Below, one piece after another: positions 358 through 58,855 of a DNA stretch of 64,000 bases. A program made the translations under genes and the position numbers. The stretch's first letter is position 1. Each line of letters starts with the position of its first letter. Location: positions 310,001-374,000 of the forward strand of contig NC_087079.1 of assembly GCF_026151205.1 (NCBI RefSeq), written 5' to 3'. The notes beneath the pieces are model-generated. The model was given only the letters and a program-made list of their open reading frames with translations. It did no database searches and was not told where the DNA came from. This DNA comes from Bolinopsis microptera. Lineage: Eukaryota > Ctenophora > Tentaculata > Lobata > Bolinopsidae.

Positions 358-478
358 TCGTGTCAATTAATGTCAGTATTCCAAAATTTTGCAAAACTGA
401 CATTGACATTAATTGACATTAATTGACATTAATTGACATTAATTGACATTAATTGACATTAATTGACGTTGCATCACC
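358..478 (+). repeat. Hairpin plus 10-bp minisatellite module (copy A)
   Basis: An inverted repeat ATGTCAGT / ACTGACAT (with ATTTTGCAAA just before the second arm) is followed by about six copies of the 10-mer AATTGACATT, ending in GACGTTGCA and a short C-rich stretch. The same order (ATGTCAGT, ATTTTG.CAAA, ACTGACAT, 10-bp repeats, GTTGCAA, C run) recurs at 51454-51575 and, without the trailing end, at 49632-49742. It abuts and truncates the LINE reading frame to its right. It is probably the end of a non-autonomous transposon family; the class is unknown. Confidence 0.6.
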
Positions 479-9345: not shown

Positions 9346-10084
9346 CCTCTCTTGTTTTTTATGTTTGTTTGTTTGGGGCTGGCTTTTACACCAGTCAATG
9401 TTTACTCAAAATATATAATAATTGTAATAATCAATATTAATCCCCGAAGGGCACGCAAATTACATGTCAACGAACTCATATTTATTTCGTCTAGATTTTA
9501 TCAGTTGATTCTGATGACCCTGATCTGCAAACACATTTGAAAGCTTAAACGTTTATATCAAATTCTTTACTTGATAATACTGTCGTAGGTGTTTTATCAG
9601 TATAGGTTTGCGCTAGTTGGCAGTGAAATATGGAATGTGCTGTCAGGATGGCACGATAAGTGATTTAGATTCTTAGGTTATTCTCGGTAGTTGATTTGTT
9701 GAGTGCCTGATCTTGCTGATTTACGTAGCCCGGGTAAATTATGTAACAGAAAAGTTGGCCATTCTTCATCGTTTCCTGAGCTTTGTAGTTCTATCATTAC
9801 ACGCTTTGCTGATTTCTTATAAATGCTTATTGAGAAAATGCTAGATGGGCAAGTTATGCGACTAATGTTGTGCTCGGTAATAGCTAATATAGGACCTTTA
9901 TACAGAACACTAGCGCGTAGATCTGGTTGAGAGTACGTTGTTAGCCAGTCGATATTGTCGTCATAAGACGTGCCATACTTTGGTAAATCGGGAGGAAATA
10001 AGTCTTTTATCGACGACGGCAGAAGGCCAGGCATGTAATTGCCCATTTATTCCTAAACTTTTGGTCAAATAGGTTGTCCCCCTC
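9346..10084. other. Unassigned tract with a minus-strand open frame
   Basis: A minus-strand frame of about 122 codons (9678-10046) reads smoothly and contains YKKSAKRVMIEL, but I do not recognise it and see no splice signals that place it in a gene. Its upstream edge carries GCCCATTTATTCCT, a string repeated at about 10634, 11301 and 11538, so it may belong to the same repeat family as the tandem duplication to its right. Confidence 0.25.
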
Positions 10085-11390
10085 TCACTCCAATTCCTAG
10101 CTGTCATCCATTTTTAATTCCTAGCCACTCGTATTCCACGATCCCTGAACTTAGGATATATTAAGAGTGGTGACGTGGCTTTTAATGAGTTTTAATTTCT
10201 TGAGCTGGTTAATAAAGCGCCTCCCTCACCGTAGCTTCTCCACCACTTCCCTAAGTTAGAGAGTTAGCAGTGGTTTTATTACTACTATATAGTTATATTC
10301 ATTATTCTAGAGAATCTTATCAATCTGAGCTCCCTGGTTCGTATGACGGTAAATATAGTTAGTAACTATATGGCGTTTTTACCATTTCTGTCTAACCTGG
10401 TTATGATGGAAATGATAGTTGCTGTGACAAGTAACCATTTATCGTGTGAAGCCCGCCGCTTTCGAGTCGTTAATGAAGCTAAGGTTTTGTCGGCTGAGAA
10501 TTTAGTTACAGACAAAGATTTTATTGGCCAATCAAAGGATCGGCTAAATTGTATTATCTGCAAGGGATCGATCTGTGAAAAATGTTTCGAATATTGAAGT
10601 TAATGGAGGGGGCCGGGGGCAACCCCATGCCCATTTATTCCTCCAATATTGATCAAATGTGCATTGTGCATCGCCTTTAAGACAGCTAAAACTTGATTAA
10701 TGATGAAAATCAATTATATCTCACTCCAATTCCTAGCTGTCATCCATTTTTAATTCCTAGCCACTCGTATTCCACGATCCCTGAACTTAGGATATATTAA
10801 GAGTGGTGACGTGGCTTTTAATGAGTTTTAATTTCTTGAGCTGGTTAATAAAGCGCCTCCCTCACCGTAGCTTCTCCACCACTTCCCTAAGTTAGAGAGT
10901 TAGCAGTGGTTTTATCACTACTATATAGTTATATTCATTATTCTAGAGAATCTTATCAATCTGAGCTCCCTGGTTCGTATGACGGTAAATATAGTTAGTA
11001 ACTCTCTCAATTTCAATATCTGACAGTACTGAGCTGGTAGAGGCATTTTTACCATTTCTGTCTAACCTGGTTATGATGGAAATGATAGTTGCTGTGACAA
11101 GTAACCATTTATCGTGTGAAGCCCGCCGCATTCGAGTCGTTAATGAAGCTAAGGTTTTGTCGGCTGAGAATTTAGTTACAGACAAAGATTTTATTGGCCA
11201 ATCAAAGGATCGGCTAAATTGTATTATCTGCAAGGGATCGATCTGTGAAAAATATTTCGAATATTGAAGTTAATGGAGGGGGCCGGGGGCAACCCGATGC
11301 CCATTTATTCCTCCAATATTGATCAAATGTGCATTGTGCATCGCCTTTAAGACAGCTAAAACTTGATTAATGATGAAAATCAATTATATC
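10085..11390. repeat. Tandem direct duplication, two units of 636 and 670 bp
   Basis: Unit 1 (10085-10720) and unit 2 (10721-11390) are almost identical. They differ by a handful of substitutions (for example TTTCGAG versus ATTCGAG, and CCCCATG versus CCCGATG) and by about 34 extra bases in unit 2 around 11004-11045. Each unit carries overlapping short frames on both strands; the minus-strand one contains QFSRSFDWPIKSL. I do not recognise the product. The near-identity implies a recent duplication. Confidence 0.85.
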
Positions 11391-18171: not shown

Positions 18172-21100
18172 TTACTTGTACTTGAAAAGGTCTCCTCCTA
18201 TTCGTTGGAGTGGCCTGCACCACATAGTAACTCCTTTCTCCGATGTATTAGGCCTCTCCAATGTACCCTGTTTGTTGCTTGTTGTTCTACATCTTCTATC
18301 GTGATGTTATCGACACCTGTGAAGATTGCTGCATCCTCCCGGACACATGACAGCCAGTTTTTCCGAGGTCTACCTCTTGATCTTTTACCATGCTTTGGGA
18401 TCCAGTGCAGAAGATAGTTGGGTATTCTTTCTTCTGGCATCCTCACCACATGGCCAAACCATCGGAGCCTAGCTGCTCGTACGAAAGTATCAACAGGGGC
18501 GATGTTGGCCCGCTTACGTACGTCAGCATTAGATACGTGATAAAACCATTTGATTTTCAGGATTCTTCTCAGACATCTATGATGGAACACCTCAAATCTT
18601 TTCATCTGCGTCTGTGTGGTATTCCATACCTCACTTCCATAAAGCAGTATAGTGAGGACAGCCGCTTTGTAGATCCTGATTTTAGTCGGTGTCTTGATGT
18701 TGCGACTGTACCATATACTGCTAAGCTGATAGAATGCCCCAGAGGCCTTCTGAATTCGAGCTGATAGTTCTTTGTCGATTGTTCCATCCGCACTGATGAT
18801 AGCACCCAAGTAAGTGAAGCTGCTGACCTGCTGTATTGGGAGACCTTCCACATTGATGTCCATAGTGTCGTCTTTAGAATACGGCCTCTGCGATGCACTT
18901 TTACTGACAGCCATGCTCTGTGTTTTGCCAGCATTAATCTTCAGACCCGCATAGGCACTGTATTTGCAGAGAAGGTCAGTGGTTTCCTGCAGCCCCTCTT
19001 TTGAGTTATCTAACATGGCCATGTCATCAGCGTCCAAGAGATGTTTCTCTTCTACCCCGGGGGCTGGCAGCTGTAATAGAGCCCCCTTACTAATGACCTT
19101 GTTCAGTTCCATAAGGTATGCCGAAAAATTCAGACAGAAGTTGAATACTGGTGGTCCCTGTATATCACCTTGCCCAGTTCCCGAGTTGACATCAAACCAG
19201 CCTGTAACCTCTCCATTGACCCTAACAGCACTAACTGTGTGAGTAAAGAACGCCTTCATGATTCTAATGTACTTGTCAGGTAAGCCGTAGTGCTGCATAC
19301 TTCTCCAAATGAACTGCCTGTCAATTGAATCAAAAGCTGCTTTGAAATCAACAAAATTAATATACAGAGGGATATTATACTCAATACATTGGTGTATAAT
19401 ACAGCGGAGTGAATAAACCTGGTCAATGCATGAGCGATTCTGCCTAAAACCACTTTGATTCTCCCGGAGAAATTTTTCCATGCCATTGCTAAGTCTTCGC
19501 AGGAGTATCATCTGCAGGAGCTTCGAGGCTGTGGATCTTAATGTAATGCCTCTGTTGTTAGCGCAATGAGAGGTGTCACCCTTCTTTCCAACGATGATAA
19601 TAACACCTTTGGACCAATCCTCGGGAATCTTCTCATCTTCCCACACTTTCTTGAACAACACAACTAGTTGATCAACTAACCCATCCTGTCCATACTTAAG
19701 TTGCTCGTTGGTGATACCATCCACTCCTGGACTTTTGTGATTCTTGAGTTTTTTGAGGGCATCAACAATCTCGTTTCTTGTAGGAGCCTCATCCGAATCG
19801 GAAAGGTCATCAAAACTGGGTTGAGGAGAGATGTTGTCTAGGTCGGAAATATTAGCCTCTTGCGGGGGCGGGTTCAATAGCCTTGAGAAGTGCTCTTTCC
19901 ACCTTTCTTTCTGGGCATGTGGGTCGGCAATCAACTGGCCAGATACGTCTCTAACTGCAGTTGACTGCTTCTTCTTCTTTCCAGATATGACATTAATCTT
20001 CTGCCATACCTCGCGTTGCTGACCTTTTCTCGCAGCTTCTTCCAGGTTAACAGCCATTCTAAGTGCCCAGTTGTTATCGTCCACCTTACTACTTTTTTTA
20101 AAGAGCTTATTCAATCTAGAATACTCTGACTTGTTAGCGTTTGAATTAGGGTCTTTACGCTTAAATTCTTTACGGTTCTTCAATAAATCTTTTGTCTTCT
20201 GAGATTGGTGCCTGTCCTTCTTTTTTCGAGGTCTTTGCCCAAGGATTTCCATGGAGACTTGTTGGACAGTTGTCTTGAAGTTGTCCCACATTGATTCCAG
20301 GTCAACCTCAGGTTCCAAACAGTCAAATTTGTTTCTCAGAACAATATTGTATTCGGAAACAAGTGAATGATCACGCAGATGCTCAATAGCAGGAATCTCA
20401 AGCTTACGTTCCTGCTTCTTTTTCACTGACATAAGCTTCATTCTCAGTCGTGCTCTTACCAAATAGTGATCAGACCCAATGTCAGCCCCCCTACAAACTT
20501 TTACATTTAGCAAAGAGCCTCCAAACTTCTTACTGATACAGATATGGTCTATTTGGTTTACAGTACGACCATTAGGTGATCTCCACGTACCTTTATGTAT
20601 ATCCTTTTGCTGAAACATAGTGCCACCGATGGTAAGTTGGTGGGCAATGCAAAAGTCCAACAATCGGGTACCATTGTCATTTGATGAGCTGTGAAGCGAG
20701 TGTCCACCAATGACACCTGACATAGAACTGCAGTCTGATGTGACCTTAGCATTAAGATCACCGAGCAGTAATTTTAAATCATGTCGGGGTAGCTCATCGA
20801 ATGCACTTGACAACTGCTGGTAGAATTCATCCTTATCATTATCTGAAGCCCCCTCAGTTGGCGCATATGCCACAACAACAGAGATGTTCAGGTGTTGACT
20901 ATGCAGCCTTGCACTCAACAAACGGTCAGATATTGGTAGATAGGAAATTAATGAATTTTTAATCCTCTTTGAAAGGGTAAGACCGACACCTCGCCTTCTT
21001 ATACCGTCCGTCCTCCCTGAATAAATAAGTAAGGAGCCATTATCCAGTAGCTCTGATCCTGTACCAGGCATATGGGTCTCAGTTATACCCAGCAAGTCCA

Positions 21101-21614
21101 ACTTATACTCAGAGATATTCTCTGATAGCTGGAACAACTGACTTTAACTACTTGTCAGAGATAATACATTCCATGTCCCAAATGTAAGACCTGTTTTAGA
21201 ATAATTCGCTGGCTGTTTCTTATTAGAGTCGGAGTCCACATGGGTGATCTGTGGAGAAATAAATCTGCTACAATGACGTGTTCTCCCAACACTCATCTGG
21301 CCACGGGGGTCCCTTAGGCTTTGCCCCGCCACCTTCATACTGGTATCATCCGTCCTTGCAGAGGGAGCCACACACCGTTTCTTGTTGTTACTTTGTGATG
21401 TTTCTGCAGCAAAATTTTTAGAGAGGAGAAGTTGCCAGCATCTCGCACCCGGTTTTTTATCGACCTTTGCCTGTCTAGATCCATAGTGTTTAGTTGCATG
21501 TCATCTGTTTATACTGGAGTCACCCAGGACAGATTACAATGCTTAATAGTAGCACCTCGAAAAGGATGTGATTCTTCATCACGCACTATGGTCATTGGAA
21601 TAGGAGAGGTGATT
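18172..21614 (-). mobile_element. Full-length RTE-like non-LTR retrotransposon, 3.44 kb
   Basis: It is bounded by a perfect 13-bp target duplication GGAGCCTAAGTAC (18159-18171 and 21615-21627). The 3' end, on the minus strand, is a short run of CAAGTACAAGTAA without a long poly(A). The 5' 240 bp hold a small frame (starting MQLNTMDLDRQ) ahead of the main ORF, which opens near 21371 with the hallmark TFGTWNVLSLTSS. It inserted into an older LINE within the codons for YLGS. Confidence 0.85.
18198..21137 (-). CDS. RTE-like LINE polyprotein: endonuclease and reverse transcriptase (one in-frame stop)
   Basis: 979 codons are open, and the frame continues upstream to 21371 except for a single in-frame TAA at 21144-21146, so the ancestral protein was about 1,057 residues. 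The endonuclease shows GTWNV (before the stop), GITETH (E20), LLLGDLNAK (D127), NQIDHI and IGSDHY. RT follows: KSPGVDGI, NNRGITL, VDFKAAFD (D598), GTGQGD, then the catalytic box. There the usual aromatic-ADD reads DADD (702-705), so the aromatic residue is an aspartate. The C-terminus has RWFGHVVRM and RGRPRKNWL, common in RTE/BovB-type elements. The stop and the DADD box suggest this copy is inactive although structurally young. Confidence 0.85.
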   Translation of the reverse strand: MFQLSENISEYKLDLLGITETHMPGTGSELLDNGSLLIYSGRTDGIRRRGVGLTLSKRIKNSLISYLPISDRLLSARLHSQHLNISVVVAYAPTEGASDNDKDEFYQQLSSAFDELPRHDLKLLLGDLNAKVTSDCSSMSGVIGGHSLHSSSNDNGTRLLDFCIAHQLTIGGTMFQQKDIHKGTWRSPNGRTVNQIDHICISKKFGGSLLNVKVCRGADIGSDHYLVRARLRMKLMSVKKKQERKLEIPAIEHLRDHSLVSEYNIVLRNKFDCLEPEVDLESMWDNFKTTVQQVSMEILGQRPRKKKDRHQSQKTKDLLKNRKEFKRKDPNSNANKSEYSRLNKLFKKSSKVDDNNWALRMAVNLEEAARKGQQREVWQKINVISGKKKKQSTAVRDVSGQLIADPHAQKERWKEHFSRLLNPPPQEANISDLDNISPQPSFDDLSDSDEAPTRNEIVDALKKLKNHKSPGVDGITNEQLKYGQDGLVDQLVVLFKKVWEDEKIPEDWSKGVIIIVGKKGDTSHCANNRGITLRSTASKLLQMILLRRLSNGMEKFLRENQSGFRQNRSCIDQVYSLRCIIHQCIEYNIPLYINFVDFKAAFDSIDRQFIWRSMQHYGLPDKYIRIMKAFFTHTVSAVRVNGEVTGWFDVNSGTGQGDIQGPPVFNFCLNFSAYLMELNKVISKGALLQLPAPGVEEKHLLDADDMAMLDNSKEGLQETTDLLCKYSAYAGLKINAGKTQSMAVSKSASQRPYSKDDTMDINVEGLPIQQVSSFTYLGAIISADGTIDKELSARIQKASGAFYQLSSIWYSRNIKTPTKIRIYKAAVLTILLYGSEVWNTTQTQMKRFEVFHHRCLRRILKIKWFYHVSNADVRKRANIAPVDTFVRAARLRWFGHVVRMPEERIPNYLLHWIPKHGKRSRGRPRKNWLSCVREDAAIFTGVDNITIEDVEQQATNRVHWRGLIHRRKELLCGAGHSNE

Positions 21615-36563: not shown

Positions 36564-39500
36564 GTAAGTTTTATCACATTTACATCAGTCTTCAGCCCAC
36601 CTGTCTTGGCTAATAGTGTACATGTGCAAGCTCGGGCTGGGCAATAGAATCTTTGTAATGATCCGTGATCTCAAGTACCTATTGAGTGAAGGAATTGAAG
36701 GTGTGGTCGGTGATAGACGTTATATTACTCTGTAGCAAAGTGATTTCTGACGTGCTATTTGCGTTCAGCTATACCCGGGTTATCAATTTTTTTCTGGTTT
36801 ATTCAAAGATTTTACCTTGAATTACTTCATACCAAAAATCATGACGTATTCGGTCACAAAGACTTAGTTAGGTAGATGCACTGCACTTAGGAAGCTAACT
36901 TCAAAGATTTTCTATTTCCTTTAGTTCAATATGAAAAGTTTCTTAGGTTACTTATATTTAATTGAATAATATCTCACAGATACTAATACGCGCCCAACTG
37001 TTTGACACAAGACCTGCAGTTGCAGCCGCTCAATATTTTACTAGTTAGAAAACGAAACTCGAAAGCCTTAGCTTTGATTTGGGAAATCTCCGCTTTCGAC
37101 GCCACCTTATTTGCCACATCTAATGAATCGCAAATTTATAAAAGTAAACCTAGCCGTCTATGTTCATAATTTCTCTTGGAGAATTTCTCTTTAGACTCTT
37201 AACTTGCGAACAAATTGAAGCAGCAAACTTTAGGCTAGAAACTTTATTGAATTGAAATAATCATTCCACGTAACAACGTCTTCTTCAGTTCTGTAATAAA
37301 ATTGTTAAACATGTGTAAAAATTAACGACGGAAAGAAATTTAAAATAACATTAAAACAAAAACAGAGAAATAAAATTTACGAAATATGACCCAAAAAATG
37401 TAATTGCAAAAAATGTCAAAACAACAAAAAATACGACAAGAAGAAATGTAAGCTAATACAACTAAATACTGTACTACACATGATACTAAACTAATTAGTA
37501 AACGTAAAACTGGTTGTTCAGAATTCACAGTTCATGTGTAAAAACTAATGATAAAATCAGCACTTAAGCAACGATAACTCGGTTGTCATGGTTACTATCC
37601 AAGATAGTCCTATCAATACAATATTTACTAGTTAAACATCGACTAAATATTTATACAAATAACTCAACTCAGAACGATCATTCATTTCAGGACTTAACCT
37701 CAATATATACATCGCTTCTACAATCTTTCTACGAACAGTTTTACTCTGTAAATCAAGTAACTTAAAAGATAAAACTGGGGTTCGGTTAGGATGTAGAGAT
37801 GCGTAGTGCTGTCCAACCCCATTCTCTGGATGTGCTCTAGGATTCCTAGCAGCCTGTCTGTGCTCCATCAGACGAGCATGGAGGCTTCTCTCAGTTTCCC
37901 CACAGTATCTCTTACCACATAACTCGCAAGTAACTAAGTAAATAGCTCCTTTTGTTGAGCATGTTGTTCCTGTGAGTCTAGGGCAGATCTCACAATTGTT
38001 AGGGTTACCAAGGTCACAAGTCTTCTTATCCAGTGGACGAGAGCGGCAGAAGATGTCCTGTAACTTCTTACCAGGTGTAAAAATAACTCTGATGGGGAGT
38101 TTGTTAGATTTGTTGTAGTTGCGAATCTTATTACAAACTGTTCCAGAGATGAATGGTAAGGTGAGTGGGACAGAGTCAGGTGTGGTTTGACGTCTTCTCC
38201 TAGTCCTCCTGTTCCTTGCGTTATGACTCAGAGGTTGGTGTCTATTTTTCTTTAAGAGATCATCGATGATCTTAACTGAATGATCGAGTTCCTGGGGTCC
38301 TGAGGAAGCAATGGTGGCATTACGGTAGAAGTTCTTCTTACACTCCTCCTTCACTGAGTCCGGGTGGTGTGACTTCTGGTGTAATGTTATCCCCTTGTTC
38401 TGGGTTTTCCTGTAGAATCTGTGGTGCACTTTTCCTTCCTCATCGATCCGGATTTCCGTACTCAGGAACGGGACAAAATCCGCAGGGGTAGACGGGAACT
38501 CGATCTCCCACTTGATTCTGTTATCGGGATCCTGGTCGGCTATGCGTTGTAACATATCCAGTGCTTCTTCTCTGGATTTGGCTAAGGAACCAGCATCATC
38601 TACATACCGTTTGTATAAGAACCGAACAGGGTTACTGATGTAATAACTGTCTAAATATATACTATTACGCTCGAATTTCCACATTCTAATAATCGCTACA
38701 GGAGGGGATGGTCTACAACCCATGAATAAACCTAAAAGTTGTTTATAAAGTCTCCCATTAAATGTAAAATAAGAATTCGTCAAAACTACTGTAAAGATAC
38801 CTCTAATTTCTGATAAACTTAAACAATACGTACTTAACTTACTCCAATGTTCTTCTGCAAATTCAATAACTGTCTCAATACACTCATTGATATTCAAATT
38901 CGTATACAAAGCTGATACATCCGCTGTAAAGAACTGTAAACCTTTAAGTTCACTCTCTGGTAACCTACAGAGGATGTCCAGGTGGCTGTAGATATCGTAC
39001 ATATGAGTAGGTACTTCTCTCAACAAAGGACTGATAATGTCGGTAACTAACCAAGCCAACTTCTCTGTAGGTGAGCCACAACACGATACGATTGGTCTAA
39101 CTTTCATATCCTCCAAGTTGATACGAGAGTAGTCAGTATCAGGTGGGAACTTGTGTGTCTTCACCAGGGTGTACATAGTAGGTAATGTAGAGTACGAGCT
39201 AATAAATATTAATAAATCCTCAATACGTGAGTCTAATTCCATATGGTTACTGCAAATAGTCCGCCACAACCTATTACACTCTGATTCAATATCTGCACAT
39301 TTCTTGTTAATTTGATTCTGATACGTTATAGGAGTAGGTCGTTGAACAGGTCTGCGTACTCCGTAACTCGAACGGGTGGGCTCTACCCATTCGTAGACTC
39401 CAGAAGTGCTCTTGTTCAGGTGTTCGATCGTTAGCGTCCGGTACGTATCAACACTAGTCACGACAAACTCGCCACACTTATCAGACTTCGAGATGTGAAT

Positions 39501-42500
39501 GTTCGGTCTTTCCTTGAGAGTACGTAGTCCAGTTCGCTGATTAAAAGTGAGGTTTGATGGTGGCTGGATATCTGGTGCTCTCAGGATGCTCATCATAAAC
39601 CGGTTGAACAATTTCAAGTCCATCTCGAGTTGTGGATCTTCGTTCGGTGGTGCAGGGATGTAGGGTCGTTGAAACGGGCATTTCTTCTTGCGTGCTTGCC
39701 TGTACAAAGAATCTAACTGTCCTGGGTTCAGAGCTTCGTTAGGTTCGTTGGATTCGTTGTTACGTTTCCATCTGCACTTATACGCACATTCAGTCAAGTT
39801 CACTTCAACCTCTTTTATCAACGATTCATCCACTTTCCGAGGTAATGCGAATTGCTTCCTCAGGACCCCAGGAATTGCTTCCTCAGGACCCCAGGAACTC
39901 GATCATTCAGTTAAGATCATCGATGATCTCTTAAAGAAAAATAGACACCAACCTCTGAGTCATAACGCAAGGAACAGGAGGACTAGGAGAAGACGTCAAA
40001 CCACACCTGACTCTGTCCCACTCACCTTACCATTCATCTCTGGAACAGTTTGTAATAAGATTCGCAACTACATCAAATCTAACAAACTCCCCATCAGAGT
40101 TATTTTTACACCTGGTAAGAAGTTACAGGACATCTTCTGCCGCTCTCGTCCACTGGATAAGAAGACTTGTGACCTTGGTAACCCTAACAATTGTGAGATC
40201 TGCCCTAGACTCACAGGAACAACATGCTCAACAAAAGGAGCTATTTACTTAGTTATTTGCAAGTTATGTGGTAAGAGATACTGTGGGGAAACTGAGAGAA
40301 GCCTCCATGCTCGTCTGATGGAGCACAGACAGGCTGCTAGGAATCCTAGAGCACATCCAGAGAATGGGGTTGGACAGCACTACGCATCTCTACATCCTAA
40401 CCGAACCCCAGTTTTATCTTTTAAATTACTTGATTTACAGAGTAAAACTGTTCGTAGAAAGATTGTAGAAGCGATGTATATATTGAGGTTAAGTCCTGAA
40501 ATGAATGATCGTTCTGAGTTGAGTTATTTGTATAAATATTTAGTCGATGTTTAACTAGTAAATATTGTATTGATAGGACTATCTTGGATAGTAACCATGA
40601 CAACCGAGTTATCGTTGCTTAAGTGCTGATTTTATCATTAGTTTTTACACATGAACTGTGAATTCTGAACAACCAGTTTTACGTTTACTAATTAGTTTAG
40701 TATCATGTGTAGTACAGTATTTAGTTGTATTAGCTTACATTTCTTCTTGTCGTATTTTTTGTTGTTTTGACATTTTTTGCAATTACATTTTTTGGGTCAT
40801 ATTTCGTAAATTTTATTTCTCTGTTTTTGTTTTAATGTTATTTTAAATTTCTTTCCGTCGTTAATTTTTACACATGTTTAACAATTTTATTACAGAACTG
40901 AAGAAGACGTTGTTACGTGGAATGATTATTTCAATTCAATAAAGTTTCTAGCCTAAAGTTTGCTGCTTCAATTTGTTCGCAAGTTAAGAGTCTAAAGAGA
41001 AATTCTCCAAGAGAAATTAAGTTCAAATGCGACTCATAAATATAGCCCCCTTGAACTATGTCTATGTTCATGTTTCTGATTCTTATCATACCAAATTAGG
41101 AGATGAGTTTGAGGCGACATTACGACAGTATACACTTATCGTATAACCATGATTAGAGACCGCGGCGGTTTAGTTAAGTCGTAAGAATCCGCAAATCTTA
41201 TATCTTATCAGATCGACATAAAGTCACTGGTTTAAGGAATATGATTGCTGTTTTACGTGGTATTTTACTGCCCCGACGTTATATTTCGATCACAAGAGGT
41301 CCAGGGCCGGGGTAAATAGTGGTAAAAATATCGAACCCAAGAGTGGCCCAACGCACAGAAGCTCCACAGAATATAGAAACTGTGTTCAAGAGTAAACTTG
41401 CCCTTAATAACTCTTGGGATAACCATTTCCTGTCATCCCAATATTCATCTACAATTTTTATCGATACTAACTACTAAGTCCTAACTAGATTTTAACTTTT
41501 TAATTTCATATATAAATATTGGTGCAATGTGTTCATTTAGGCAGAACTTGTACGTATTACATAACTACATAACTTCTAGACCAAATATTTCATTACCAAA
41601 AGCCGTTGAGCATAAATTAAAGATGCGACACGGACATCTTTAATCTTTAATACAGAACTGAAAATAATTATCATGATTAGATTTTATGATTGAGAAGCTG
41701 TACCGTAAATTGCTCGCAGAAATAGTCCATCTTTCCGAGTCCGAACCGGCGAACCTGGCAAGTGTTCCTGCGTATTATAACTACAAGTACTTACATTTCT
41801 TATGCAATCACTTACCAGCCACCTAGGTTCCAGACTCCAGACTCTCATATCTGGTCTGTTGAAACTATATAAGACACCGATCAGTCACTAATCAGTCACT
41901 ATTTCAGTGCATTTCGGGGACGACATCTCAATTGCCAAGTCACAGTTGTACAGCATCATCACCAAGGCGAGGAACTGCGCTCACCCTCAAACAAAGCTCA
42001 TCACCATGCTGGTTAAGAACCTGATCCCAGATTACGAGGGGAAGAGTTACACTCGCCTGGATCCTAGTCACACCAACATCCTGCGGAGTAAGTTGCTTGC
42101 GGAGTGAGCTGTTCAATCAATGAATGCACAAAGTAATCTGCTAGATCATGCTCCTTGAATAATTATTCCTTTTTCATACTGTAGCAAATTCGCCAAAATT
42201 GAAGTGATCTTTCATGTACAACGAAACGGAAAGTTTCTAATGATTGAAATCGCAATTGCGTTCTCGGCGTATTAGATTGGGACTAGATTATAAAAACGCG
42301 ATTAGCGGAAGAGAAGATAGGACTCTTTTTACAGCTCAACTGTACTTTTTTATTCACAATCCTCGATGTAAATATGTATCATGGATTATTTTACTAATTC
42401 AGATAACTGTTCAGGTTTATATTTCACTGTATTCCCGGTGGATGTTGATGACAATGTTGTAGATGATGATATGCGGGAGCGAATTAAGACACGTATTGAG

Positions 42501-52200: not shown

Positions 52201-55200
52201 ACAGTTTTTAGTTAGCTAATTAAACCATGGGTCTCTTAAACTCTTTTTCAAAGGTATTATCGGTTGAGTTTGTATGGCATTTGATTGAAATCAGAAAAAT
52301 GTTCGCCAAAAACAACACAGATAGGACTCACAACATCTGATTTGGTTTACTTCCAAGACTATCTAAAATCAGGGCCTGATTCATGGCGTTTACCTCTAAA
52401 TACTATTCTCTCCCAGGTAAGGGTACAGTAAGAAGGAAGAAGAAAGTTATTCACAAGAGTGTGGGTACAGACGACAAGAAACTGCAGACCAGTCTTAAGA
52501 AACTTCAAGTCAGCAATATCCCCGGTATCGAAGAGGTACGTGCAAAGCGAAGTATAGTCCACTGTGGGTAAAGAGCTAGTAGTGTTTTAGCGGTCTGTCA
52601 TTGAACCTTTTGTGTGATTCGGGGCTTTTGATTTGGTGGAGTTAGAATACTTTCATGTTAGGATACTTTCATGATCCATGTAGCAGTTTTAAAAAAACAA
52701 TTCCCCGGCTGCGTTGTTTAAAACATTTAACATTTCAGGTTAACATAATCAAAGAAGATGGAAATGTGATCCATTTTAGTAACCCTAAGGTTCAAGCAAC
52801 AGTACAAGCGAACACATTCGCAATTTCTGGAAACGCAGAAACAAAGCCAATCTCAGACCTCTTGCCAGGTATGTCCCCGTCCCAACTTCACACATTATTC
52901 ACCTTTACCAGATTCCGATAATTATAAACCCCCCCCCCCCCCTCCGTGAATTATTTTACAAATAGCCAGTGTGTAGGAATTACACTAGAGCTTTCCCGAA
53001 CCCACTCTCCCATATGCTGATTGAGGAGCACTACCCGAAGGCATTACTCGGCACTAACGCCTTAAAATCTTTAATTACAATCAAATATAAATATATGCAC
53101 ACAATGTATAAAGTATTAATAATGTATAAAATATGATTATGCTATTAGCAAATTTAAATAGTACTATTAAGAATTTTAAATAACTCTTATCTCTTGACAT
53201 AAATTTAGAACAGCGACACAGGGTCTGAAGAATGCGCGGTGATATTTTTATCTTTTAAAAGTTGTAAATGACAGTGAAATTGCGCGGTTTCGATAGCATT
53301 GTAAAAAATGCTCGAAGATAGTCATATTTTGTTATGAGGTTAAAGTTTTGTTGCTCGTTATTATGATCAACGTATGTTGTACCAAATTATTTAAATTTCT
53401 AAAAGTACGAAATTTGAGTTGTCCCAGTCCTTGTCATCCGGTTTATGTGCTTGTGCAGTAAGCACATGCTTGTTGACTGTAGACTTGAATGAATTTAGGA
53501 ATTTGTCTTGTAGGCAAGTGGTGACATATTTTATGTCCTTGTTAATAATGTTGACTGTTTGGTTATATAACTTAGGCCCAATGTAAGAAATGCTCTTGTC
53601 TGAATTACATAAACGGTTAAATGGTACTGCAAAGAACTCAGGTTCTCTTCTAGGTGCGTTTAAGTTTGAAACAGTGAACATTCTTATAATATTTGGTGGT
53701 GCAGTGTTAGAATAAACTTTGTGCATTAAGCATAATATACATTTAGCTATCACGTTCGGTAAAGCTAATACTTCTAGTTTATTGAAAATTTCCTTTGTGT
53801 GTGAAGGTGTGCTATTCAGATCTTTGTCATAAAAATAGCGGTGGTATTGGTTATCTGCAGCGCGAATGCCCTTTTTCTGGGCCGAGAAGACTCTTTTAAC
53901 GGAGTTTAGCGATCTTGTTCCCCAAACTGTGCAGCAGTAGTACAAGTGAGACTGAACAAAGCTGTTGTATATCAACTTGAGTGCTTTGTTAGGTACTGAG
54001 CCTTTGAGTTTGTAGAGAATACCCGCATTTCTAGATACTTTAGTGGCTAAATGTCTAATGTGGTGGGCCCAATTTAGCTTGGTATCAATGATCACGCCAA
54101 GAAACTTTTCGTGATAACTTTGCTTTAGTCGCTCACCTCCCATGTAGATTTCTATATCCTTAGTTTTTTTATTTGTAAAGATCATATATTTAGTTTTGCT
54201 AGCATTTAATTTGAGCCCGTTATTAGTAGCCCAATCAATTATCAAAGTCAGAATCTCATTCACCAATGCATTAAGTTGTTCAAATGTATCTGTACTTATT
54301 ATTAGGTTTGCGTCGTCAGCGAAATAAATATGTTTAGCTAAATTACTAATCTGAGGAAGGTCGTTGATGTAGATTATGAACAGAATTGGTCCGAGAATGG
54401 AGCCCTGTGGTACTCCGTAGTTAAGTTTGAGGTGAGAGGACTTGCAGTTGTTGACGCTCACGTATTGCTCTCTATCGGTTAGATATGAGTGAAACCAAGA
54501 TAAAGCCAACCCCCGAACTCCATAGTGCTCAAGTTTTCTCAGAAGAATACTGCTGTCAACCATGTCAAAGGCCTTGCTGTAGTCCAATAGAAGCAGTGCT
54601 GTGACCTGCTTTTTTTCTAGTGCCCTGTGAATATGGTTTTGGGCTTCTAGTAAAGCATGTTCGCAGCTGTGCCCAGCCCGAAATCCGTATTGAGAGTCAA
54701 ATAGGATTTTCTCTGTCTTTAAGTGATCTAATAGTCGCGCTTGCATAATTTTTTCAAAGATTTTTGAGAAACATGAGAGTAGTGAGATAGGTCGATAGTT
54801 TGAAACTTCAGCACGTGACCCACCTTTGTGAAGTGGAACTACTTTCGCGATTTTCAATTTATGCGGAAACTTTCCCTGATGTAGAGACGCAGAGACTAGG
54901 CAGCTAAGCACTGGTGCAAGTATATTGCTCACTTTTTTCAGGGGAAGTATACTCATATCAGAAGTCGACTTAATCTTCAAACCCTTCACTATTTCAATTA
55001 TTTCTGATGCGGACGAATCTTCTAGATTCATGCTCCGCTGGCATTTGCTATCTTGAGTTTCTGTTACGATAGTCCTGCCCTCAGAGCATACGAGACCATT
55101 TTCTCTCTTAAGAGTCTCAGCTATATTGCAGAAATAGTCATTGAAGCTATTCGCAATTTGCTGTGAATCTGTTATCTCGCTCCCATTATAGTTAATTTTG

Positions 55201-58200
55201 TTTATCTTAATTTTGCCTTTTTTCTTTCTGTTTAACAAGTTATTAACCATTTGCCATTGTTTTCTGCTGTCGCTAGAATATTTTGTAAAGTACGCGTTGT
55301 AATATTTGTTTTTGGCCTTATCCACGTGTTTATTCACAAATTTCTTCATTTTCTTGTACCTAATATCATTTTCAGTGGTCGGGTTTGTGACAAAATCTTC
55401 ATAAAATTTATTTTTGCGATCACATGCGCACCGTAACCATTCTTGGATCCACGGCTTTGTGTTTTTACGGCGGCCTGGTTTACTCTTTTTTGCCTTAATT
55501 GGGAAATTTCGGTCGTATAGTTCACTATATTTTTTATCGAAAGCCTCAAATTTTTCATCTACAGAATCATAGTTATTAACCAAGTTCCAGTCTACCGCAG
55601 AAATGTCGTTCTCGAACTTTTGGATACTGTCATCGTTTATTACTCGAGAAGACATTTCTGTTGTATCTTCTTGAAGTTTACAACTGAGCCTATTCTGATC
55701 AACCATGATTGTGACAAAAGTTGCCAAGTGGTCAGAGATTGACTCAGAAATTACTCCCGATTTTGTAACAGCGTGGCAATTATTGACGAAAATATGGTCA
55801 ATGATTGTCGCACTGTGATCTGTGACTCTAGTTGGTCTAGATATCACAGGAGCGAACCCATGCTCTGCTAGAGTATCCACATACTTAGTGACAGAGTCTA
55901 TTCTCCCGTAATCTAGTAGGTCTATGTTAGTATCACCGGCCAGTATGATATTTTTGTTTCGATGTCTTGCTAAGTTACGGAGGAAAATTTTTAATTGTTC
56001 AAGGAAACCATTCAAATCCCCACTTGGAGAGCGATATATATTACAGATTAACGCGTTTTTGTGCCCTTTCAAGGTAAGTTCTGCAACCAAGAATTCTCCT
56101 ATCTTAGGATTATCGTGGCAACATAGAGCGCTCTTAACGTTTATGTCAGATAATTCACATAGTTTTTTGTTAACATATATAACTAATCCTCCACCACGAT
56201 TTGACGCTCTGGCGGGAGTCTGAACATACGGTGGATAGAAACCTTCTAGTTCGAGCTCCTCTCCCTGAAAAGGCAAACATTCCGTGTTACAATTTGTTTC
56301 ATTGAAGCAGAGAACGTCGTATTTTGTGTATTGATCTATATTCTCCCGAAATTCTTCAATGTTCCCATTAAGTGACCTAACGTTTAGCGAGAAAAGTTTT
56401 AATTCATACTCCTTCGTATTTTTTATTGCTTTCGCGGTATAGTATTTGCAGTTATTTAGAAGACTAGACGTTGTTTCCCACGGATTCAAATCAGCATCAG
56501 TATCATCACGATCACCTATTTGATTTGATAGGTGGTCGCGATTAAAGGGGTTAAACCTAATAGTGTTACTGAGATTTATCATGTGAAGCTGTCTAATGGA
56601 GACATCATATGCTGGGAAAATTTTTCTTAAGCATTCTTTGCAGCCTGTTGAGCCAGCAGAACATCTTGTGTGGGATAGGTTGTCACAGTAGCAACATTTG
56701 GTCATTTGTCTTACATTCCCAATTTTTGTGCAAGTGTGACATTTTTCTCGTTTATTGGAGACTGGGATTTGTATAGGCCGTGATGGTAATAGAGGCATGA
56801 CGGCGCCCACTGGAAGAATTTCTGAAATGCAGCTGTAGCAAGACCATTCTCCAGTAAGTTCAGTTATGTCGCTAGGTGTTAGGTGAGCACATTTTGGGTG
56901 ATATGTCATATAACAGATACTACAAGTGATGCTTATCTTGTGTGAGACTAGGCGCTTTGTACAGGCCTTACAGCTATTTTTACTACTTCGGATAACTACC
57001 ATTTTTTGGCTGTAAATGATACTCTTGTTTAAATGTAGATATAGGTTTGCTACTGTATATTAATATATAATAAAGTACACGGAAAAACAGTTACTGAAAG
57101 TATCTACTCCAGATGAGTGAGCCAAGAAAATGGGGCCAGGGAAGAGTGAGAAAACGTGCGAGGTTTTGTGAACACTCTGTCCGGGTCCCTAACTTCAGCT
57201 CCTAACTAGAGAAATCAATTCAGTTAAGTGTTATTCTGTGGGAATAAGTTTAAAAAGTTAATTGAAGTATGTGAAATGTGAATGTGACTTGTATTCTGTA
57301 TTTGTAACTTGTAAGTGTATGTACTTAGTGGTCTGATTACGTGATTCAAATTAGTAAAGATAAGATTTCGATTAGCCGTAAGCTGGTGCAGATAAGACAT
57401 GGTTCGTATACTGTACGATTCTTAGTAGATTAATAATTATGTCCAAATTTTCGATGTAGTATGTTTGTATATTGTATTGCTGTTCTAAGGTCTGCCCAAT
57501 GAAGAAACATACTCCCGTCTTAGCGGCCAGTGTTTTCGAATTAAGTAGCTGCGCCCCATAAATTCTTTGACACAGGTAGCAAGAGAGCGAGCTATCTCTC
57601 TCTTGGACAGTACTGTTAGGTGGATTCCGTTTCCATCAGGATCTACAATGACCTCTCTTCTCTGGTATAAAACAGTACAAATATGGTGCGAGTCAAAGAA
57701 CCATAGCTTGGACACTCTATTGCTTAGTTCAAAAATAAAACTGTTAAAAAGCTTAACCTCCTCATTAAGCCACGAGAAACGTGTGAGAACTAAAGAATTA
57801 AATATAAAAGTCGTGTTAGGATATTTCTCAATTAGATAATCAATATTTCTTTTAAAATCACATGAAAGGGAGTGGTGGTGGTGGTCATAGCGAGATAAAT
57901 CGTTTATACCAGAAGAAATTATGACAATTTTAGAGCCAGAAATATACTGTTCGTGATCTAAAATTTTGGATAACTGGTACATTTCGCGTTTGATGCAGTG
58001 TACGTTAGGAAGGTCGAAAGGAACATCTCTGAGAAGCGAGTCCGTCAAGAATAATAGACGCTCCTTAGGTTGAGACTGCTCAGTAACTGTAGGCTTATGA
58101 ATCGGTTCGTGGATCCTCGGGATTTTTTTGCGAGGGGGGGTATTCTGAGAGAGGCGTCTGAACGTAAGCGATATTCTGCAGTCCTGAGTTTCTGGTTGTG

Positions 58201-58855
58201 GCAATATACCATGCTCCCAGAAATTCTGTGATTCACGTGTCATCACATACACACATCCATGATCAAGTTTGTGGATCTGTTGTTTGACCGGACCGACTTT
58301 GCTACGAAATACCAGGTCTCTAGAAGCCCCAAGACTGAGTGTAATGATGTCACCAGTGACCTCATTTTCATCATCACTGTGGAAGGGTATATGGCACTTG
58401 CCGTTTTCATATTTGGTGATTAGACAAGTTACCTGCTCCTTATTAAACGTAGGGTCATCTAATGCATTCGAAATGTTTGTAAAAATGTGGTCAATAATGC
58501 TTGTATTTGCCATCCTTGCTCCAAGAATAGAATATGTGGCAAATGTAACCATTATATAATATTTAATGTGGCTTTCCAAACCTCCTTTGTACTGCAAAAA
58601 CAATGTTATTTGCCATTTCAATTTCTGATTCCACAAATCATAAAACATTAGGTTTGTGGCAGCATGGTATATTTGGAGCAATTTAAGGGTTAATTTATGG
58701 TACCTACCCACTCAGGTATAATTCAGCACCTAGTGGGACTGTCCAGCTCACTGCCAAAGCAGATGAAACATGACTCAATACCTGAGGGTGACGAGGACGA
58801 TGTCCCTGCTCTGGTGGAAGATTTCGATGAAGCATCTAGGACCGAAGGAATGTAA
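49157..58855 (+). CDS. BTF3: Nascent polypeptide-associated complex subunit beta (BTF3), complete four-exon gene
   Basis: Exons 49157-49214, 52417-52535, 52739-52868 and 58716-58855 sum to 447 nt: 148 codons plus stop, the usual family length. The N-terminus ([22 protein letters not shown]) carries the family's start and the basic RRKKKVIHK ribosome-binding motif. The NAC domain follows ([59 protein letters not shown]), then an acidic tail ([18 protein letters not shown]). NAC-beta pairs with NAC-alpha at the ribosome exit tunnel and shields nascent chains. All introns are GT-AG. The 3.2-kb intron 1 holds a TIR transposon and the 5.8-kb intron 3 an antisense LINE. A likely poly(A) signal AATAAA is at 59134-59139. 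Confidence 0.95.
49632..49742 (+). repeat. Hairpin plus 10-bp minisatellite module (copy B)
   Basis: TTGCAACGACCATTA, then ATGTCAGT...ACTGACAT enclosing ATTTTGTCAAA, then about six CATTAATGGT-type 10-mers. It is in direct orientation to copy C at 51454-51575. Confidence 0.65.
50292..50930 (+). CDS. Unrecognised ORF inside the TIR element
   Basis: The open frame runs from 50262 (after a TAA) to the stop at 50930. The nominal start is TTG, and the first in-frame ATG is about residue 68, so either a spliced upstream exon supplies the start (GAATCAG at 50271-50277 could be an acceptor) or the frame is a remnant. Residues 1-60 are acidic and disordered ([22 protein letters not shown]). The rest is basic with spaced cysteines (CNFG, GTGCFEG, QPGCKN, KPCQRR, RPLRCLG, SICPYRD, VLNCKR). 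It contains no DDE, RT or helicase motif that I can see. It may be an accessory or regulatory protein of the transposon, a captured host exon, or a decayed ORF. Confidence 0.45.
   Translation: MYKKSYLNSDSDLIRAKANRVALQFSELYPGDDEREEESDNESDFVAPDSESEDKDLHDLVTIKNKKMNTNTAITKFCNFGKTIFGNKSRRSKFFGTGCFEGSVPYQPGCKNSSKPCQRRTIRKGDSLSATFVPKKAKRPLRCLGTILSMSVSASKKGNCRSRRIPAASICPYRDDSARFWVKTAEGRVLNCKRIVLSNPRKRSAFLLSDSD
51454..51575 (+). repeat. Hairpin plus 10-bp minisatellite module (copy C) and C run
   Basis: ATGTCAGT...ACTGACAT enclosing ATTTTGACAAA, then CATTAATGGT 10-mers, GGTCGTTGCAA and a long C tract. Its outer end is the inverted match of the outer end of copy B (G tract, TTGCAACGACC), so B and C bound an inner cassette. 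Confidence 0.65.
52417..52535 (+). CDS. BTF3: BTF3 exon 2
   Basis: Acceptor TCTCCCAG, donor GAAGAG|GTACGT. Encodes [17 protein letters not shown] through IPGIEE. An in-frame ATG at 52383 upstream is intronic. Confidence 0.93.
52739..52868 (+). CDS. BTF3: BTF3 exon 3
   Basis: Acceptor ACATTTCAG, donor CCAG|GTATGT. Encodes [18 protein letters not shown] through KPISDLLP, the second half of the NAC domain. Confidence 0.93.
53060..58710 (-). mobile_element. CR1/L2-like LINE with AlkB-SGNH ORF1, ~5.6 kb, apparently intact ORFs
   Basis: Two minus-strand ORFs in LINE order: ORF1 (57485-58711) and ORF2 (53391-57002), 482 bp apart. The 3' end is not sharply defined. A short repeat of ATGTATAAA.TATT near 53105-53140 (minus strand, TTATACATT units) may be the microsatellite-like tail typical of CR1/L2 elements. 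The 5' end lies within the last ~170 bp before BTF3 exon 4. No target duplication found, as is usual for this clade. It lies antisense in BTF3 intron 3. Confidence 0.8.
53391..57002 (-). CDS. LINE ORF2: PHD-like zinc fingers, endonuclease and reverse transcriptase, 1,203 aa
   Basis: Starts with ATG and is uninterrupted. Residues 11-58 form a PHD-type C4HC3 finger (CKAC, CSIC, H35/C38, CYSC); a second Cys/His cluster follows at 88-124 (CHTC, CCYC, H111, CKEC). The endonuclease spans 201-430: [10 protein letters not shown] (N207), FNETN (E235), LAGDTNIDL (D357), TIIDHIF, SISDHLA. RT spans ~680-960: [27 protein letters not shown] (D807), [10 protein letters not shown] and catalytic FADD (894-897). 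All catalytic residues expected of a target-primed LINE are present. The C-terminal region (YYCCTVWGT and after) matches CR1/L2-like elements. It would nick target DNA and reverse-transcribe the element's RNA there. Confidence 0.92.
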   Translation of the reverse strand: MVVIRSSKNSCKACTKRLVSHKISITCSICYMTYHPKCAHLTPSDITELTGEWSCYSCISEILPVGAVMPLLPSRPIQIPVSNKREKCHTCTKIGNVRQMTKCCYCDNLSHTRCSAGSTGCKECLRKIFPAYDVSIRQLHMINLSNTIRFNPFNRDHLSNQIGDRDDTDADLNPWETTSSLLNNCKYYTAKAIKNTKEYELKLFSLNVRSLNGNIEEFRENIDQYTKYDVLCFNETNCNTECLPFQGEELELEGFYPPYVQTPARASNRGGGLVIYVNKKLCELSDINVKSALCCHDNPKIGEFLVAELTLKGHKNALICNIYRSPSGDLNGFLEQLKIFLRNLARHRNKNIILAGDTNIDLLDYGRIDSVTKYVDTLAEHGFAPVISRPTRVTDHSATIIDHIFVNNCHAVTKSGVISESISDHLATFVTIMVDQNRLSCKLQEDTTEMSSRVINDDSIQKFENDISAVDWNLVNNYDSVDEKFEAFDKKYSELYDRNFPIKAKKSKPGRRKNTKPWIQEWLRCACDRKNKFYEDFVTNPTTENDIRYKKMKKFVNKHVDKAKNKYYNAYFTKYSSDSRKQWQMVNNLLNRKKKGKIKINKINYNGSEITDSQQIANSFNDYFCNIAETLKRENGLVCSEGRTIVTETQDSKCQRSMNLEDSSASEIIEIVKGLKIKSTSDMSILPLKKVSNILAPVLSCLVSASLHQGKFPHKLKIAKVVPLHKGGSRAEVSNYRPISLLSCFSKIFEKIMQARLLDHLKTEKILFDSQYGFRAGHSCEHALLEAQNHIHRALEKKQVTALLLLDYSKAFDMVDSSILLRKLEHYGVRGLALSWFHSYLTDREQYVSVNNCKSSHLKLNYGVPQGSILGPILFIIYINDLPQISNLAKHIYFADDANLIISTDTFEQLNALVNEILTLIIDWATNNGLKLNASKTKYMIFTNKKTKDIEIYMGGERLKQSYHEKFLGVIIDTKLNWAHHIRHLATKVSRNAGILYKLKGSVPNKALKLIYNSFVQSHLYYCCTVWGTRSLNSVKRVFSAQKKGIRAADNQYHRYFYDKDLNSTPSHTKEIFNKLEVLALPNVIAKCILCLMHKVYSNTAPPNIIRMFTVSNLNAPRREPEFFAVPFNRLCNSDKSISYIGPKLYNQTVNIINKDIKYVTTCLQDKFLNSFKSTVNKHVLTAQAHKPDDKDWDNSNFVLLEI
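57485..58711 (-). CDS. LINE ORF1: AlkB-type 2OG/Fe(II) oxygenase fused to SGNH hydrolase
   Basis: 408 codons from a nominal GTG; in-frame ATGs at residues 22, 54 and 67 are likelier starts. Residues ~50-186 match the AlkB fold: [22 protein letters not shown], then FHSDDENEV with the iron ligands H111 and D113, [23 protein letters not shown], the distal ligand H167 in NFWEHGI, and RISLTFR with the 2-oxoglutarate arginines R179/R185. Residues ~218-385 match SGNH/GDSL esterases: FLTDSLL (S225), SSGINDLS (N270-D271) and NGIHLT (H364, with Asn where DxxH has Asp). An SGNH esterase in ORF1 is known from CR1-type LINEs. The AlkB half suggests oxidative removal of alkyl or methyl groups from the element's nucleic acid. 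Same strand as and just upstream of ORF2. Confidence 0.88.
   Translation of the reverse strand: MGRYHKLTLKLLQIYHAATNLMFYDLWNQKLKWQITLFLQYKGGLESHIKYYIMVTFATYSILGARMANTSIIDHIFTNISNALDDPTFNKEQVTCLITKYENGKCHIPFHSDDENEVTGDIITLSLGASRDLVFRSKVGPVKQQIHKLDHGCVYVMTRESQNFWEHGILPQPETQDCRISLTFRRLSQNTPPRKKIPRIHEPIHKPTVTEQSQPKERLLFLTDSLLRDVPFDLPNVHCIKREMYQLSKILDHEQYISGSKIVIISSGINDLSRYDHHHHSLSCDFKRNIDYLIEKYPNTTFIFNSLVLTRFSWLNEEVKLFNSFIFELSNRVSKLWFFDSHHICTVLYQRREVIVDPDGNGIHLTVLSKREIARSLATCVKEFMGRSYLIRKHWPLRREYVSSLGRP
58716..58855 (+). CDS. BTF3: BTF3 exon 4
   Basis: Acceptor CTACCCACTCAG. Encodes [17 protein letters not shown] and the acidic tail, stop TAA at 58853-58855. The antisense LINE ORF1 frame reaches to within 5 bp of this exon. 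Confidence 0.92.

Follow-up and report, generated by a model that had tools for sequence, protein, structure and literature searches.

An AlkB-type domain joined to an SGNH domain in LINEs and a Helitron open reading frame of the ctenophore Bolinopsis microptera

A stretch of 64,000 nucleotides from the ctenophore Bolinopsis microptera (NCBI RefSeq assembly GCF_026151205.1, contig NC_087079.1, positions 310,001 to 374,000; hereafter the window) contains a copy of a long interspersed nuclear element (LINE) on its minus strand (Table 1). The copy carries what is left of a first open reading frame (ORF1), in which a putative AlkB-type dioxygenase domain is followed by an SGNH hydrolase domain, and a downstream ORF2. 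A preliminary description of the window had reported an open frame of 408 codons at 57485..58711 and read it as a complete retrotransposon ORF1 fusing an AlkB-type demethylase to an SGNH esterase. The frame exists and lies on the minus strand, frame 1 of the plus strand being full of stops; the start codon listed for it is GTG, which is not a normal eukaryotic start.

The AlkB identity of the product was confirmed. PF13532 (2OG-FeII_Oxy_2) matches residues 90-185 of the 408-aa protein at 5.1e-19, above the curated Pfam cut-off, the motif HSDDE, the second His and the R..R pair are present, and the first match among solved structures (PDB, phmmer) is ALKBH2 (2.3e-9). The similarity of the predicted protein to AlkB is far beyond chance. 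The SGNH assignment stood in part: PF13472 reaches 0.0013, with 19.7 bits against a cut-off of 32.9, whereas a profile of 20 element SGNH domains has as its first match 4c1b, a solved LINE ORF1 esterase (1.7e-15), closely followed by 2hsj, a putative PAF-acetylhydrolase (3.9e-15). The LINE context also proved correct. ORF2 (53391-57002) lies downstream on the same strand and encodes both an endonuclease (EN) and a reverse transcriptase (RT), and copies of the element have truncated 5′ ends and a common 3′ end. Two family copies (L010 and L018) have the same 3′ end as the window copy (53018), followed by (ATCA)n; the match of a third (L009) ends at 53347, 329 bases short of the common 3′ end. 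Flank comparison revealed no clear target-site duplication at the window copy, the longest word common to both flanks being 5 bases long and lying away from the junctions.

Table 1. The LINE copy of the window and its parts (positions are those of the window).
Feature	Position	Strand	Evidence
Whole LINE copy, 5′-truncated, 5480 bases	53018..58497	-	Alignment to ten other loci, seven places
ORF1 remnant: AlkB remainder and SGNH, stop at 57485	57485..58497	-	Equivalent to residues ~255-592 of the L003 ORF1 (592 aa)
AlkB (2OG-FeII_Oxy_2) without its first strands; H-x-D-D-E, H and R..R retained	58154..58497	-	PF13532 5.1e-19, element AlkB profile, alignment
SGNH hydrolase domain; S, G, N and H retained	57563..58063	-	Element SGNH profile, residues 217-383, 3e-53 (the profile includes the window's own family); PF13472 0.0013
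Flanking DNA in frame, outside the element	58498..58711	-	End of homology among family copies
ORF2, 1203 aa: zinc finger, endonuclease, reverse transcriptase	53391..57002	-	RVT_1 4.3e-38, Exo_endo_phos 2.2e-14, PHD 9.3e-4 (below cut-off)
ORF2 endonuclease domain	55728..56390	-	PF03372, residues 205-425
ORF2 reverse transcriptase domain	54087..54806	-	PF00078, residues 733-972
3′ untranslated end, ...CTCAATCA	53018..53390	-	Alignment to family copies

The 408 codons did not hold up as a complete ORF1. The window copy is 97.2-99.9% identical to ten family loci, which represent seven places (L003/L009, L004/L010 and L006/L018 are the same places), and homology ends at 58497 in eight loci and at 58495 in two. 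Codons 1-71 (58498-58711) are therefore flank, which is a repeat in its own right, a 93% match to residues 1-75 being found at G000:C8:226529. Truncation fell inside the AlkB domain: the window copy covers positions 92-194 of the 194 in PF13532, compared with 54-194 in the full copy L003, and with a start at position 92 a complete catalytic core is absent. An intact ORF1 has about 590 aa and consists of an N-terminus, AlkB and SGNH; that of L003 is 592 aa long, with about 228 residues ahead of AlkB. The 408-codon frame is, judged by these alignments, the surviving 3′ part of the ORF1 of a LINE with predicted AlkB and SGNH domains joined. Because the window copy lacks a complete AlkB domain, the claim of an AlkB-bearing LINE belongs to the family. 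At that level a LINE with its own AlkB-type domain fused to SGNH was borne out, and the pairing is wider than the preliminary description knew.

The family and the domain are spread over the genome (264.65 Mb in 232 contigs, in which the window is C8:310001-374000). The window ORF1 has 103 matches (102 scored of 785 first-look candidates) at identities from 100% to 33%, many of them in uninterrupted frames of about 600 codons over many contigs. PF13532 occurs in at least 151 places, a lower bound because 150 of 587 candidates were scored; three of them are the host-like genes L019-L021, and the frames bearing PF13532 differ greatly in length. With these numbers, the one-off capture that the preliminary description had named as a competing outcome is rejected; longer copies of the LINE carry AlkB, and 5′-truncated copies end before it. 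An assembly or annotation artefact, or a chance similarity, would have to account for 103 matches on many contigs at many identities, 151 PF13532 places and intact frames, and is hardly conceivable.

Sixty-one loci with a match to a profile of element AlkB domains were read, three of them host-like and 58 from elements. AlkB and SGNH profile matches occur together at 57 of the 58 element loci and in one frame at 55. One AlkB frame was counted per locus; for L028 this is an incomplete second copy at the edge of the locus, the main copy there having AlkB and SGNH in two separate frames. L043 is the exception: its frame stops soon after AlkB, and no SGNH match lies within 1500 bases below. These 58 loci come from 53 places including the window (L003/L009, L004/L010, L006/L018, L025/L050 and L040/L049 are each a single place) and form a non-random sample, mostly chosen by an AlkB or window-protein match; 21 of these rows went into the AlkB profile and 20 into the SGNH profile. 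Four loci, however, were picked by a strong SGNH match, AlkB not being known beforehand, and AlkB lies upstream in all four. SGNH frames of 455-521 aa, to which these four loci belong, had been candidates for AlkB-free outgroups and were rejected as such, since the element profile finds AlkB upstream in the four read; Pfam recognizes an oxygenase in two of them (L063, PF13532, 4.8e-16; L062, PF03171, weakly, 0.0022) and none in the other two. A genome profile search listed 150 SGNH places, AlkB having been looked for in a minority, and SGNH-only elements may exist among them. Partial SGNH matches below cut-off were also seen at G000:C4:14372030, C1:2744216 and C7:398700, in frames of 1421-1814 codons that possibly belong to another element class.

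The elements fall into groups, named A to F in this analysis. Groups A and A2 (L003, L011-L017 and the window copy) have an ORF1 composed of N-terminus, AlkB and SGNH and an ORF2 with EN and RT. Group B (L025, L041, L051) has a coiled-coil-looking N-terminus (by eye) ahead of the two domains and an EN-RT ORF2, and group C (L032, L052-L056) a weak PHD match (below cut-off) in that position, with an ORF2 that has a cysteine-rich start (by eye) and EN. In group D (L035, L045, L058), which also has an EN-RT ORF2, AlkB and SGNH stand apart, with a long stretch between them that gives a weak coiled-coil-type match. Group F (L062-L065) has AlkB then SGNH in frames of 455-518 aa. In 20 other element frames scanned with Pfam, PF13532 is over its cut-off in 16 (not L016, L062, L064, L065), and a GDSL family match is found in 16 (none in L013, L045, L052, L055), exceeding its cut-off only in the four group F frames; domains missed by Pfam cut-offs were called from element profiles and conserved residues.

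Group E (L023, L033, L037, L040/L049, L042, L047, L048, L057) consists of SGNH, a Pro/Ala-rich stretch and AlkB. In L049, Helitron_like_N (5.3e-22), PIF1 (1.1e-21) and AlkB (7.4e-21) stand in one frame, of which the piece read covers 3,300 codons; the Helitron domains are seen in this locus only, the other group E loci having been read over the SGNH-AlkB part. Other AlkB frames of 3226, 3321 and 3366 codons were listed in the genome search (AlkB match only). The domain order is AlkB-SGNH in LINEs, in contrast to SGNH-AlkB in the Helitron ORF.

An EN tree separates groups B (100/100, starred), C (98/99, starred) and A with A2 (81/91). The group D RT matches that of group A at 25.8% over the tblastn stretch, and the RT tree has long branches and no starred one; the EN profile did not pick up the group D endonuclease. 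The split into lineages thus comes from the EN tree for A, B and C and solely from low RT similarity for D. On these two grounds, the pair is present in no fewer than four ORF2 lineages, and in a rolling-circle transposon besides. The putative AlkB-SGNH pair recurs as an accessory module in the mobile elements of this genome, associated with several LINE ORF2 lineages and a Helitron ORF.

The window holds further ORF2 fragments and another RT frame. A group-C-like ORF2 fragment at 439-2547 (-) has a cysteine-rich start, EN and part of RT, its EN being 45% to that of L053. A C-terminal ORF2 fragment, 79% to L013, is found at 9681-11390 and is adjoined by a direct duplication of about 650 bp at 94% (10083-10720 / 10719-11390). 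A 981-aa single RT frame at 18198-21143 (-), 27% to the RT of the window ORF2, is distant from the AlkB-bearing LINEs and has no AlkB near it. The element AlkB profile matched no window frame of at least 30 aa besides that at 57485-58711.

The relationships of the element AlkB bear directly on what it may do. Against solved structures, the element-only profile matches ALKBH3 (1.5e-29) and ALKBH2 (6e-24), and more weakly bacterial AlkB (1.8e-9), ALKBH8 (6e-8), a DNA-6mA demethylase (5e-4) and ALKBH1 (0.08); ALKBH5 and FTO are both missing from the 48 sequences matched up to E = 10. The predicted enzyme is ALKBH3/ALKBH2-like, not ALKBH5/FTO-like. The host has separate frames of its own, one ALKBH2-like (L019, 3.9e-60) and one ALKBH3-like (L020, 2.5e-40). 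In an unrooted tree of 28 AlkB domains, with rows from this one genome only, a starred branch (96/93) parts groups A, B, C, E and F from the host genes and group D, whose AlkB would have been captured separately or have branched off early. The AlkB trees do not unite group C (3 and 4 changes). Derivation of the Helitron AlkB from group C LINEs, supported at 91/91 in a 24-row tree, is not proposed here, as this support was lost once group F was added; the SGNH tree has weak deep branches (46/66) and a long Helitron row. Outside this genome, single-protein queries, which find close relatives only, gave no relative of the window ORF1 in IMG/VR, one unconfirmed pattern match to the Helitron AlkB there, no match in phages, and, for the group F ORF1 in prokaryote genomes, 62 pattern matches, none of them confirmed.

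The third host-like locus (L021, G000:C5:22266454-22268829) holds an AlkB-like gene (L021:1063-1950), 45% to the ALKBH3-like L020, which is followed on its strand, after about 700 bp, by an SGNH frame (L021:2662-3438) matching the element profile at 8e-9. Each was found in a single full-length copy, together with broken AlkB-like copies elsewhere on C5, and the two are either a host gene pair or unlinked neighbours.

All 21 element rows keep the same AlkB residues at Tyr, H-x-D, Glu, the second His and R...R, and the window copy also keeps the iron ligands H-x-D...H and the R...R pair in the alignment. The stretch VFGKWH, which we take to be the duplex-probing finger of ALKBH2, precedes the core in host L019 and is absent, by eye, from 21/21 element rows. 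In the SGNH domain, S, G, N and H are invariant columns (20/20 rows). Ratios of nonsynonymous to synonymous change (dN/dS; Nei-Gojobori, own script) could be had for AlkB in 5 of 11 pairs, those with unsaturated synonymous change (saturated: L014/L015, L003/L011, L003/L012, L016/L017, L052/L055, L064/L065). They are 0.04 for L045/L035 (group D), 0.11 for L003/L005 (window family), 0.14 for L025/L041 (B), 0.16 for L049/L057 (E) and 0.22 for L032/L053 (C), the values for L003/L005 and L032/L053 resting on few differences. The N-terminus or linker gives 0.15-0.56 where computable, and AlkB is lower in each same pair, in L025/L041 barely so (0.14 under 0.17, at a dS of 1.5, near saturation). AlkB is under purifying selection in the element families. 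It might nevertheless be carried as a non-catalytic, nucleic-acid-binding part of the ORF1 protein: ORF1 proteins generally package RNA (see also PMC4120745), and in the ORF1 frames scanned Pfam matched no RRM. The Fe(II)/2OG residues, invariant in 21/21 rows, speak against such hitch-hiking and make it very unlikely.

The recurring pair looks like a selected tool with which the elements may tend their own RNA or DNA. The substrate class of ALKBH2/3 comprises 1-methyladenine (m1A) and 3-methylcytosine (m3C), and it seems an even bet that the element AlkB removes such copy-blocking lesions from the element's own single strands. The ORF1 protein would bind or coat the element's RNA or single-stranded intermediate, and AlkB would oxidatively strip it of methyl or alkyl lesions on the Watson-Crick face (m1A, m3C), which would otherwise halt reverse transcription or copying. 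For Helitrons it is the single-stranded DNA intermediate whose copying these lesions would obstruct; LINE RNA and complementary DNA and Helitron single-stranded DNA would be common exposed single strands on which AlkB could act. The SGNH domain would anchor or release the particle at membranes, as proposed for the ORF1 esterase of zebrafish ZfL2-1, which binds phospholipids, not oligo(A) RNA, and for which a membrane role was suggested (PMC3905857).

The preliminary description had offered either repair of the template by removal of alkyl lesions or erasure of host N6-methyladenosine (m6A). The former fits better, and is favoured because the element AlkB is ALKBH3/ALKBH2-like rather than ALKBH5/FTO-like; for the latter, the profile offers no ALKBH5 or FTO match up to E = 10. 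As an eraser, the AlkB would strip m6A or N6-methyldeoxyadenosine (N6-mdA), as host marks, from element RNA or DNA, which would then escape silencing or decay. Precedents exist: the ALKBH5-like domain encoded by orchid Ty3/Gypsy elements demethylates m6A in vitro (PMC9289625), and in mouse embryonic stem cells N6-mdA lies on young LINE-1 (L1) elements, with ALKBH1 as its demethylase, according to a meeting report (PMC6015446). The affinity of the element AlkB is, however, to ALKBH3/2, ALKBH1 reaching only 0.08. In human cells, moreover, METTL3 and m6A promote L1 and the m6A eraser ALKBH5 suppresses it (PMC7873242), which argues against m6A erasure helping a LINE. Erasure of host marks is therefore unlikely here.

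Several observations weigh against lesion removal as the role of the pair. Many LINEs, L1 among them, copy themselves with no AlkB of their own, and ALKBH3 is reportedly active on m6A too. Directly after the ligand Asp, at a position that contributes to base selection in AlkB enzymes, the 21 element rows differ (D/N/S/G). VFGKWH is likewise missing from the host ALKBH3-like L020 and L021, and what its lack in the elements argues against is only a duplex mode like that of ALKBH2. Three residues ahead of the SGNH His, Asp is present in 12/20 rows, groups A2 and B keeping it, and absent in 5/5 of group A, which have N/N/N/R/H there (Asn in the window family, L003 row), and in 3/4 of group F; with this triad Asp missing, SGNH hydrolysis in the window's group is uncertain. 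Finally, the demethylase activity of the orchid Gypsy AlkB is described as acting on m6A (PMC9289625).

The two domains might also act in turn, AlkB oxidation being followed by SGNH hydrolysis of an acyl or ester group on one nucleic-acid or protein modification. Such a paired eraser would suit their joint presence at 57/58 loci, the occurrence of both orders (AlkB-SGNH in LINEs, SGNH-AlkB in the Helitron ORF), and group D, where a long stretch separates the domains and AlkB stands apart from that of the other elements. Common descent, however, accounts for much of the co-occurrence in groups A, B, C, E and F, no substrate is known, and the SGNH domain resembles a lipid-binding esterase (PMC3905857), all of which leaves this alternative quite improbable.

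Building on lesion removal, a bolder proposal can be put forward tentatively, and with rather less confidence than lesion removal itself: AlkB-SGNH could be a portable two-enzyme module, swapped among and repeatedly assembled in LINEs and Helitrons of one animal lineage, which, in a step common to all of them, un-blocks and protects the element's own single-stranded nucleic acid, possibly through two-step erasure of a shared modification, and so amounts to a self-carried repair system. If true, certain elements keep their template chemically in order themselves, a role beyond that of the RNA chaperones that LINE ORF1 proteins are thought to be. The presence of the pair in LINEs and in a Helitron would point to a common bottleneck in mobility. 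Whether methyl lesions limit retrotransposition would also become a question testable with a natural enzyme and point mutants.

Parallels are found among several selfish elements. Fungal KDZ transposons with TET/JBP are DNA transposons that, like the present elements, carry a 2OG dioxygenase; TET/JBP act on 5-methyl-pyrimidines and are a different family from AlkB. In plant plus-strand RNA viruses AlkB sits within the viral replicase, and we know of no SGNH partner for it. These viruses are likewise selfish RNA-based elements with an AlkB of their own, for which repair of genome RNA has been proposed (PMC9289625). Another example is the Phalaenopsis Ty3/Gypsy lineage, likewise a retroelement encoding an AlkB-family dioxygenase; that element has long terminal repeats (LTRs) and a separate, extra ORF that is ALKBH5-like, whereas here the domain is SGNH-fused, ALKBH3/2-like and borne by LINEs and a Helitron (PMC9289625). 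Type IV LINE ORF1s such as that of ZfL2-1 (PDB 4c1b) likewise have an SGNH domain in an ORF1 upstream of an EN-RT ORF2 (PMC3905857). They differ in that the window's group has lost the triad Asp and in that AlkB has no occurrence in the texts on ZfL2-1 (PMC3905857) and on the ORF1 survey (PMC4120745). In bdelloids, LTR and Penelope-like elements have extra GDSL-esterase ORFs, and an esterase is likewise common to retroelement classes there; "AlkB" and "2OG" do not occur in the text of that paper (PMC5408684). The excerpt of PMC11294593 refers to host alkB2 only. Among the matches listed in a search of open-licence papers, subscription papers and preprints lying outside its scope, no title or abstract concerned an AlkB-bearing LINE, an AlkB Helitron or an AlkB-SGNH pair, and no open-licence full text searched joins CR1, esterase and AlkB. 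Esterase ORF1s and one AlkB-bearing Gypsy lineage are known, and the distribution of AlkB-SGNH is wider than expected.

Further features are independent of the LINE. The window contains an inverted repeat pair (37167-38312 / 39874-41019) of 1146 bp, 99.65% identical, with its arms about 1.6 kb apart. Of three ionotropic-glutamate-receptor frames compared with solved structures, L060 matches the ML032222a receptor of the ctenophore Mnemiopsis best (1.2e-61), and kainate receptors come first for the other two. Elsewhere in the genome, 10 of 32 glutamate-receptor places (among L059-L061 and the listing) stand in uninterrupted frames of more than 900 codons and therefore seem to be intronless genes.

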